Assembly (NCBI GenBank): GCA_009760855.2
Contig: WPIO01000002.1
Coordinates: forward strand, 4,744,001-4,808,000
DNA from: Cristatella mucedo
Taxonomy: Eukaryota > Bryozoa > Phylactolaemata > Cristatellidae
DNA length: 64,000 nucleotides
Direction: 5' to 3'
Positions within the stretch are counted from its first letter, which is position 1. Each line of letters starts with the position of its first letter. The notes below the pieces were generated by a model. That model did not search any database and had not been told where the DNA came from. It was given only the letters and a program-made list of their open reading frames with translations. A program made the position numbers and the translations under genes. Shown one piece after another: positions 8,261-18,480 of this stretch.

Positions 8261-8501
8261 CTGCTAGAGCTGCCTTACGGGCCATAACGACAGCAACTGC
8301 AATTAGGGCAGCCGAAGCAGCTCCAGCTCCAATGACTATGACTGCAATAGCCCAAGGCTGAACATTTGTAACCAGTAAACAGTTGTAAGCAGTAGCAGCA
8401 GCACCAGCAGCAGTAGTGTTGGTAGTGATAGTGATGGTGGCGGCAATAGACGACGTCAAGGGAGAAGCTCTTGTCAGTGACGTCAGTAAAGCATCGAGGA
8501 C
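8261..8501 (-). CDS. PKHD1L1: Fibrocystin-L-like gene, transmembrane exon
   Basis: Acceptor TTCTGCCCCCATAG|GTCCTC, donor CTAGCAG|GTGAGT; 241 nt. It encodes VLDALLTSLTRASP, a Thr/Ala-rich stalk, QPWAIAVIVIGAGAASAAL and IAVAVVMARKAALAG: one membrane helix and the start of a basic cytosolic tail. It ends in phase 1, so a short terminal exon must lie downstream, not identified. Confidence 0.72.
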
Positions 8502-17500: not shown

Positions 17501-18480
17501 ATCAGGCGCTAAAAATGCAACTGCTCCCCACAGCACTCACTAGGTCCTTGTGAAGTGTCCTTTGTGTGCATATGCTTGTTGATGCTGTGCACAATATCAC
17601 TAATCATGACAAGCTTACCTGGCAGCAAATGTAAAGTGGCTAGAAAAAGATTAAGCTCTCTCCGGGCTCTAACAAACGTACTATTATTATACTTCGCTCG
17701 GAGGTTTTCCAAACCTCGATAGTGCCGACATGCGAAGTAAGAAAAGGCTCGGTAAGCCCATGCAGTCAGACTTTTTCTACGAGAGTTGCTGCCAGCTCTC
17801 CTACCCCCCAAGCTCTGTACTGCCGAGCATAAAGATCCTATGGAGGCTGCCCTGCAGTCGAGTGAGAAGGGGAAGACACGGCGTTCTACTAGCCCATCTC
17901 ACTCAACAACCTTCTCTGGTCGTCTCTGCCTTACACGTCAGTTCCTTCGAGTGCAGCAAATTTGAGAGCGACGCCGGACAGCCGGGGGGGGGAGGCGAAT
18001 TCAGCAAGTTACTCTGTGTAGCACTGGATTTGCTGCTGGCTGCAGCCTTCCTTGAACACGTCGCAGACATACGACCGCGTGCTGGACACCAGCCAGACAG
18101 CGTTTCCGAGGTTCTCGTTGCCGACGCCGAAGTCGAACAGGTTCTCGGCGAAACCTGCAGCGAAACGCTCGGGAGTTCGGACAGACGGACTGCCGCCTAG
18201 CAGAGGCCAAGCGACCAAGTTTGCTAGCCACTGCGCTACCTTTGCCGTATATCGTGAGCAGCATGCCGCCATTCAGACTGCCCGTCGACGGAGTCAGTAG
18301 AGTCACCAGCTGCGCTAAAAACGACACAGCGGCGCGAGTAGCTAAAGCGATTACGAACAAACCAGCAAGGGTCACGAGCCGGTGGGGACAGACGAACGGA
18401 CGGTTCGGCCGCGGCTGCGTGCACGGTTTGAGTAGCGAGCCAGCGAGCGAGCGGCAGCTGCCGGCGAAGCGGGCACTCAT
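8261..18480 (-). CDS. PKHD1L1: PKHD1L1 (fibrocystin-L)-like receptor lacking the central domains; partial exon model
   Basis: Minus-strand exons: 18480-18240, 18154-18013, 17294-17192, 15687-15630, 13279-13182, 12109-12050, 11963-11721, 11498-11291, then at least one unresolved exon, then 8501-8261. All joins up to 11291 keep phase. The product starts with a signal anchor, then IPT/TIG domain 1 (STGSLNGGMLLTIYGKG, CDVFKEG, QIQCYT, DKYYVSVAVNGVRL) and the start of IPT2 (AVTPLTGLPG). It then passes straight to the membrane-proximal region of fibrocystin-L (a tetrabasic RRRRAL, LEIGNQPP, LGQLSFQINVT, GSPADAIAGVPFNIQPSV) and a transmembrane helix. Human PKHD1L1 has about 4,240 residues; this model has about 465 plus a gap. 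Vertebrate family members are cell-surface or ciliary/stereociliary proteins. The last coding exon after 8261 was not found. Whether this is a true short isoform or gene, a deletion, or an assembly collapse is unresolved. Confidence 0.75.
8625..8664 (+). repeat. (TG)n microsatellite
   Basis: About 20 uninterrupted TG units, in the 3' part of the fibrocystin-L-like gene region upstream (in gene sense) of the transmembrane exon. Confidence 0.95.
8960..9335 (+). repeat. Long (TC)n tract with CACT-rich and CACGGTCT-bearing flank
   Basis: Starts with CACA/CACT-rich DNA, passes through TCTCACGGTCTC variants, then pure CT repeats from about 9182 to 9302. The long Ser-Leu reading frames across it are artefacts of the repeat. 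It lies in the intron before the transmembrane exon of the minus-strand gene. Confidence 0.95.
9895..9955 (+). repeat. (TG)n microsatellite
   Basis: About 20 TG units followed by CGCGTGTGTGCGCGTG variants. Confidence 0.95.
11291..11498 (-). CDS. PKHD1L1: Fibrocystin-L-like gene, exon 8 (Ig-like membrane-proximal segment)
   Basis: Acceptor AAGTTATTGTAG|ATATAT, donor ACTGCAA|GTACCA (donor less sure); 208 nt. It encodes IYLVAPIPSANSSSWGQ, a Thr/Ala/Ser stretch, then AKINVIAGSPADAIAGVPF and NIQPSVQLLSATA. The motif GVPF..QPSV marks the last extracellular segment of fibrocystin-L. One or more exons of about 60 residues should follow before the membrane helix; I could not fix them in 11290-8502. 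Confidence 0.75.
11721..11963 (-). CDS. PKHD1L1: Fibrocystin-L-like gene, exon 7 (membrane-proximal domain with tetrabasic site)
   Basis: Acceptor TTGTGTTTTGCAG|ATCCGG, donor TTCACCAAG|GTCACT; 243 nt, 81 codons in phase 0. It encodes IRVVNVVSEASTPSG, RRRRAL, VVQLEIGNQPP and LGQLSFQINVTFTK. The basic site in the same place in fibrocystin relatives is a proprotein-convertase site; cleavage here is inferred. An N-glycosylation sequon (NVT) is present. Confidence 0.8.
12050..12109 (-). CDS. PKHD1L1: Fibrocystin-L-like gene, exon 6 (start of membrane-proximal region)
   Basis: Acceptor TTTGTTTCATGAG|ACTACA, donor AGATTAAAT|GTGTGG; 60 nt in phase 0. It encodes TTFLATEFAELLTIDNIRLN. This fits the helical segment just before the basic cleavage site in fibrocystin-L. 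The 86-bp intron to the next exon is typical of this gene's short introns. Confidence 0.6.
12690..12775 (-). mobile_element. LINE 3' tail
   Basis: (ATA/AAT)n, then TGCACTTGATAAAGTGCCCT and CTAGGCGCTTTACATTTGC: the conserved tail read on the opposite strand. It lies in intron 5 of the fibrocystin-L-like gene. Confidence 0.75.
12825..13060 (+). mobile_element. LINE 3' end, degenerate
   Basis: CCTTTGGAGAGCGTGCCTTT and GTTTGTATGCTCCCAAAGCG match the LINE C-terminal coding end; 3' UTR pieces follow. Opposite orientation to the tail at 12690. Confidence 0.6.
13182..13279 (-). CDS. PKHD1L1: Fibrocystin-L-like gene, exon 5 (probable IPT2 piece)
   Basis: The donor GTCATTGAC|GTAAGT is strong. The acceptor GCAAAAG|TATGCA is less sure and follows a LINE/SINE tail in the intron; an alternative AG lies about 17 nt further in. 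It encodes CMYLGMFYSQVSSCDASD and TDASVID. YLGMFYSQVS resembles the G-[RM]-[IF]-F-[TS] strand of IPT2, but a resemblance to a later segment of the family cannot be excluded. Phase 1 in and 0 out fit both neighbours. Confidence 0.6.
13295..13365 (-). mobile_element. LINE or SINE-A tail
   Basis: AATAATAACAGTTTGTGTAG and CTAAATCTCTATCCGGATGC match the SINE-A/LINE tail. It abuts the acceptor of exon 5 of the fibrocystin-L-like gene. Confidence 0.55.
14485..15095 (-). mobile_element. LINE 3' copy, degenerate
   Basis: A damaged tail (GAACCCTCAGTGAACTTGAT, CTAGGCATTTCATATATGC) at 14495-14545, a 3' UTR with GCATGC repeats, and the end of the RT frame up to about 15095. In intron 4 of the fibrocystin-L-like gene. 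Confidence 0.7.
15630..15687 (-). CDS. PKHD1L1: Fibrocystin-L-like gene, exon 4 (start of IPT2)
   Basis: Acceptor CTTGTTTCAG|CCATCT, donor CTGCCAG|GTAAGC; 58 nt. It encodes PSLTVSPILSAVTPLTGLPG, the linker and first strand of the second IPT domain, continuous with exon 3. Confidence 0.82.
16308..16400 (-). mobile_element. (AAT)n plus LINE 3' tail
   Basis: Eleven AAT units (16311-16344), then TGCACTTGATAAAGCGCCCT and a broken second stem arm. A tail-only fragment. Confidence 0.7.
16728..16818 (+). repeat. LINE tail remnant merging into a perfect 33-bp tandem duplication
   Basis: AGGTGCCTAGAAAAAGATTC at 16731 is the tail stem. TTCTCTTATGGTGCTATTTT followed by GCTATTAACATTA occurs twice in a row (16753-16785 and 16786-16818) without a mismatch. 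Confidence 0.8.
17192..17294 (-). CDS. PKHD1L1: Fibrocystin-L-like gene, exon 3 (end of IPT1)
   Basis: Acceptor ACATTTTACAG|ACCGAT, donor TATACG|GTGAGT; 103 nt. It encodes PMAVDKYYVSVAVNGVRLSS, then QICAQDKTKCVYT, the final strands of the IPT domain. Ends in phase 0. Confidence 0.85.
17525..17700 (+). mobile_element. LINE 3' UTR and tail
   Basis: TAGGTCCTTGTGAAGTGTCC, GCAGCAAATGTAAAGTGGCT and AAAGATTAAGCTCTCTCCGG, ending in ACTATTATTATA. In intron 2 of the fibrocystin-L-like gene. Confidence 0.7.
18013..18154 (-). CDS. PKHD1L1: Fibrocystin-L-like gene, exon 2 (IPT1 core)
   Basis: Acceptor CGCTGCAG|GTTTCG after an 85-bp intron, donor TACACAGA|GTAACT; 142 nt. It encodes GFAENLFDFGVGNENLGNAV and CDVFKEGCSQQQIQCYTE. 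This aligns without gaps to the first IPT of fibrocystin-L (G...LGN.V.L, CDV, QI.CYT). Confidence 0.85.
18240..18480 (-). CDS. PKHD1L1: Fibrocystin-L-like gene, exon 1 (signal peptide, start of IPT1)
   Basis: ATG at 18480 (MSARFAGSC), 80 codons plus 1 nt, donor GGCAAAG|GTAGCG. A 33-residue basic leader precedes the hydrophobic stretch LVTLAGLFVIALATRAA, then LTPSTGSLNGGMLLTIYGK, a textbook opening of an IPT domain. An internal start closer to the hydrophobic core is possible but I see no in-frame methionine there. Confidence 0.8.

Follow-up and report, generated by a model that had tools for sequence, protein, structure and literature searches.

A third fibrocystin-L-like gene copy in Cristatella mucedo is probably a pseudogene whose middle has been lost

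Members of the fibrocystin family matter in human health, PKHD1L1 in hearing and PKHD1 in kidney disease. The human PKHD1L1 protein is described as having 14 predicted IPT repeats (PMC11043200), and fibrocystin-L is presented as the ancestral member of the family, its putative orthologues ranging from green algae up to vertebrates (PMC13424714). A narrow title search of the literature gave, among the matches listed, none on a short PKHD1L1 gene. We analyzed a stretch of 64,000 nucleotides from C. mucedo (the window; C222:4744001-4808000) and searched the assembly it belongs to (572 Mb, 688 contigs). An initial annotation of the window had proposed a compact PKHD1L1 receptor whose first IPT exons join directly to the membrane-proximal end. 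Judged from its sequence, the locus, which we call copy C, is probably instead a third, dispersed fibrocystin-L (PKHD1L1)-like paralog that is now a pseudogene.

Nine exons of copy C were mapped (Table 1), and all of them have counterparts in two other copies in the genome, A and B, with 31-67% identity exon by exon; the weakest single-exon matches are those of e8 and e1 to A. These matches support the family assignment made in the initial annotation. The spliced e1-e4 gave a Pfam TIG match (E=6.7e-8), and the signal peptide in e1 was assigned by eye, so that the reading of a signal peptide, IPT1 and the start of IPT2 on the minus strand (18480-15630) was upheld. The tetrabasic motif reported earlier is present in e6 as GRRRRAL, with the counterparts GRRRRAL in B and GRRKRSI in A, and has the form of the predicted membrane-proximal basic cleavage motif. 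Likewise, the exon proposed to encode a membrane helix is e9, whose hydrophobic stretch (a predicted single membrane helix) matches A and B. The membrane-proximal exons had been placed at 12109-11291; e6 and e7 are both real, but e6 begins at 11963, as it does in A and B, and 12109-11964 is intron. Two further exons, e7b and e8, had been overlooked.

Table 1. Exons and other features of copy C in window coordinates, with the best matches to copies A and B (percent identity and E value).
Feature	Position	Strand	Content	Match to A	Match to B
e1	18240..18480	-	start codon, signal peptide, first part of IPT1; leaves in phase 1	first exon: E=7.8e-5 as longer ORF; E=0.056 as shorter e1	first exon: E=3.9e-5 as longer ORF
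e2	18013..18154	-	IPT1	66%, E=4.6e-19	60%, E=1.7e-16
e3	17192..17294	-	end of IPT1; leaves in phase 0	45%, E=3.7e-5	37.5%, E=0.002
e4	15630..15687	-	IPT2 codons 1-19; leaves in phase 1	47%, E=0.007	60%, E=2.1e-4
Junction interval	11964..15629	-	replaces 129-134 kb of the paralogs; LINE fragments in either orientation		
LINE fragments in the junction interval (examples)	14480-15097; 12809-13034; 12697-12768 (72-bp 3' tail)				
Joining exon of the initial annotation	13182..13264	-	longest-known form, nearest acceptor; judged no real exon		
e6	11721..11963	-	membrane-proximal, tetrabasic motif; enters and leaves in phase 0	67%, E=3.5e-28	60%, E=3.5e-28
e7	11295..11498	-	donor (11294-11293) GC	donor GT	donor GT
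e7b	10792..10939	-	in-frame TAG at 10915-10913	57%, E=5e-13	63%, E=3e-17
e8	8739..8836	-		41%, E=0.5 (weak)	50%, E=1.1e-6
e9	8261..8501	-	membrane helix; leaves in phase 1	43%, E=3.7e-7	44%, E=8.7e-12

Within the window, IPT sequence is limited to IPT1 and the beginning of IPT2, and searches with ORFs of A and B revealed no further exons; the last coding exon or exons beyond e9 were not located. Pfam scans of window ORFs (E<=0.05) gave no TIG match, and the same scans also overlook the window's own split IPT1; they covered 129 of 132, 137 of 167 and 111 of 177 selected ORFs, and domains divided between exons are poorly detected by them. The two pieces of e6-e9 had no Pfam match above the curated cut-off, and comparison of e1-e4 and of e6-e7 with solved structures returned no relative (best E 0.69 and 0.65). 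Neither Rfam nor tRNA scans found anything in the window, and among the 22 pattern matches of a viral-contig scan none codes for a relative.

Copies A and B lie in tandem on the minus strand of contig C111, at about 8131098-7990550 and 7955451-7814085, respectively. Measured by approximate exon ends, the span from the first to the last shared exon is about 141 kb in each of them and 10.2 kb in copy C, and the distance from e4 to e6 is 134 kb in A and 129 kb in B, in contrast to only 3.7 kb in C. The N-terminal and membrane-proximal exons are thus physically close, as had been stated. A search of the genome with the e1-e4 protein gave eight matches, four to copy C itself, two to A and two to B; with the membrane-proximal protein there were 15, of which five were to itself, three to A, five to B and two were weak (C199 and C119). 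TIG domains were matched 16 times in the genome, 13 times in two clusters on C111 (five in copy A and eight in copy B) and three times singly, at C222:3011365, on C561 and on C321. We asked whether the match at C222:3011365 could be a part of copy C that had moved, and rejected this: the 12 best matches of that locus to A and B do not cover it, sit at 3005xxx and 3009xxx and are repeat-like. The G8 domain was matched eight times, with three matches each in A and B and two on C676, and none on the window's contig in this whole-genome search. The pair on C676 (1354398-1354655 and 1413301-1413570; E=5.7e-20 and 1.5e-20) scores higher than any other G8 match in the genome; its members are separated by 59 kb and lie outside the PKHD1L1 copies. 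PA14 had no match anywhere in the genome, A and B included, in an exon-by-exon search.

The middle of the gene was found in A and B only. When the two were compared over the parts of C111 outside 7821001-7880000, 7960001-7989000 and 7999001-8040000, 18 of the 27 matches listed read as middle exons, the others being e2, repeats or overlaps. Eight middle blocks of A, used as queries, all had counterparts in B (38-65% identity), and in the whole assembly they detected no middle exons of a third copy outside C111 (18/18 matches on C111). Two paralogs that keep the predicted middle exons, with further IPT and G8 domains, are therefore present elsewhere in the same genome. The initial annotation had suggested a genome-wide search for a full-length PKHD1L1; A and B keep the middle, and their end-to-end length was read in part. 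These results also bear on the possibility that copy C is truly longer and that the assembler, joining across repeats at 15.6-12.0 kb, lost the middle. The junction interval is indeed rich in LINE sequence, and the kept exons look constrained. The window, however, contains no Ns and belongs to a contig of 15.8 Mb, and the confinement of all middle-block matches to C111 makes a mis-join that left the middle on another contig unlikely at the sensitivity of this search. Moreover, the stop codon in e7b and the changed donor of e7 would remain regardless. Taken together, these data suggest that an assembly artefact is an unlikely explanation of copy C.

The relationships of the three copies were examined over 372 aligned residues. 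Identities were 197 between A and B, 196 between A and C and 207 between B and C, so the three copies, as far as their sequences tell, separated long ago and lie at roughly equal distances from one another. Copy A has 61 changes of its own, B has 50 and C has 51, and copy C was not accelerated relative to either (p=0.40 vs A, p=1.0 vs B), suggesting that its kept exons evolved like those of A and B for most of their history. Because the protein rate of C is that of A and B, the loss of the middle would be recent relative to the duplication. In a codon model, omega=1 could be rejected for neither C (p=0.19) nor B (p=0.16); for A it was rejected (p=2e-13), yet only with the branch length of A at its bound; with synonymous sites saturated, branch dN/dS is uninformative and the omega of C is indistinguishable from 1 or from that of the other copies.

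The initial annotation had claimed matching phases across the gap, but the phases differ, being 1 at the end of e4 and 0 at the start of e6. A direct splice would thus be out of frame, adding D-P-G-G and then a stop for a product of 185 residues. In A and B the exon next after e4 is exon 5 (C111 8129906-8129813 in A, about 7941956-7941846 in B), which enters in phase 1 and leaves in phase 2 in both copies and is similar between them (E=1e-6). Searched against the window, exon 5 of A or B had no match below E=0.2; within the e4-e6 interval its sole minus-strand match up to E=10 was one of 10 residues (E=8.2). The exon ending at 13182 with which the initial annotation had bridged the gap does not match exon 5 of either copy. 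It is thus not exon 5, and we rejected it as a true exon.

A compact receptor, in effect a mini fibrocystin-L reduced to a single IPT domain on a cleavable stalk, would require that this stretch serve as a cryptic exon restoring the frame and that the TAG in e7b be skipped or read through. The stretch at 13182 is open from phase 1 to phase 0 and has a GTAAGT donor, which speaks for the proposal, as does the unaccelerated evolution of the kept exons. Such a stretch is nevertheless expected by chance: when the e4-e6 interval was shuffled 300 times at the dinucleotide level, one or more open exons running from phase 1 to phase 0 and followed by a GTRAG donor were present in 84% of the shuffles, and the real interval has two such donors against a shuffle mean of 1.9. 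Its phase-fitting acceptors are also poor, with 6-9 pyrimidines in 18 positions compared with 8-15 in 18 for eight real acceptors. The downstream exons present a further obstacle. The TAG of e7b falls in a well-kept stretch where both A and B have a sense codon, and the donor of e7 has changed. GC splice donors can function, and the AG of the TAG itself could serve as an acceptor of the same phase and so skip the stop codon. Even so, no single open in-frame coding sequence runs through the copy from end to end, the frame failing between e4 and e6 and at the TAG. With a bridging exon of chance quality and no counterpart in A or B, a frame that does not continue, a premature stop and an altered donor, the claim of a compact working receptor was not sustained, and we consider such a receptor quite improbable.

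Very improbable, too, is a living but very young rearranged gene beside two full-size paralogs, one in which the middle was lost recently, the stretch at 13182 was exonised and the TAG is skipped through the adjoining AG. Least probable of all is that only the 5' part works, as a small secreted IPT1 protein from e1-e4: these exons have no stop and have standard GT donors and AG acceptors, and the direct splice gives the 185-residue product, but C-unique changes (14/118 sites in e1-e4 and 37/254 in e6-e9) do not clearly mark the 5' part as the better preserved one, and such a transcript is expected to be degraded.

The gutted-pseudogene reading accounts for the exon-for-exon counterparts in A and B, for the confinement of the middle exons to C111 in the eight-block search, and for the absence of exon 5, the out-of-frame e4-e6 junction, the TAG in e7b and the GC donor of e7. 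Points against it are that the 1,477 retained coding bases contain a single nonsense codon and zero frameshifts, that copy C has the amino-acid rate of a gene under constraint and an omega indistinguishable from 1 or from that of the other copies, and that both the GC donor and the AG of the TAG might still be usable. Copy C resembles A and B in its signal peptide, IPT1, the start of IPT2, the tetrabasic exon, the exons that follow and the helix, and its exon phases are the same where they were compared; it differs in having 3.7 kb in place of their 129-134 kb, which contain additional IPT and G8 exons, and in carrying the premature stop and the GC donor. Judged against an unprocessed (duplicated) pseudogene, copy C has the predicted hallmarks, namely homologous exons with introns, an internal deletion and other disabling changes (a premature stop and an altered splice site), and putative parents elsewhere in the genome that keep the middle. 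It departs from that type in that its kept exons are well preserved, which makes the loss look young relative to the duplication.

We propose the following course of events for the pseudogene. Copy C arose by duplication at the DNA level, as its exon structure shows; the retained introns rule out a retrocopy. It diverged anciently from the tandem copies A and B, its kept exons changing at the same amino-acid rate. Later, an internal deletion probably took everything from intron 4 to the intron before e6, as the 129-134 kb of the paralogs against the 3.7 kb of C suggests, possibly by recombination between LINE copies. The nonsense codon and the changed donor have struck the membrane-proximal part, before or after this deletion. 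If the locus is transcribed, the e4-e6 splice would give 185 residues, a secreted IPT1 followed by four out-of-frame codons. The small number of disabling changes suggests a neutral divergence since inactivation of about 0.7%, with an upper bound of 3.8%; this is a rough figure, calculated with 3.15% of single changes creating a stop and an assumed 0.067 frameshifts per substitution.

The result is mainly a correction, in that an annotation pipeline or a reader could call a gutted third paralog a compact receptor. A smaller, positive point is that the genome carries three or more old PKHD1L1-like copies, of which one has apparently been lost recently. If the short form did yield an in-frame product, nature would have supplied a minimal version of a protein that has been hard to study on account of its size.

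Several other features were observed in the window. A TNP-like RNase H (P-element-type transposase) match (E=2.3e-4) was found in one of 111 plus-strand ORFs, and a renewed search of eight plus-strand ORFs for this domain gave no match. LINE-like elements lie on the minus strand at 30469-31503 and 58117-59082, with open reverse-transcriptase ORFs of 344 and 321 aa, respectively. Short 3' tails of LINEs are numerous and about 80-93% alike (for example, 16311-16398 and 57602-57681), two of them within the region of copy C. Minisatellites occur at 19593-19733 (11-bp unit, 13 copies) and 23493-23620 (10-bp unit, 12.8 copies). Finally, two minus-strand ORFs at 40855-41328 and 48783-49013 match POT/PTR2 peptide transporters (E=1.9e-9 and 1.3e-14, respectively); both probably belong to a single transporter gene that lies upstream of copy C, as two of its exons.
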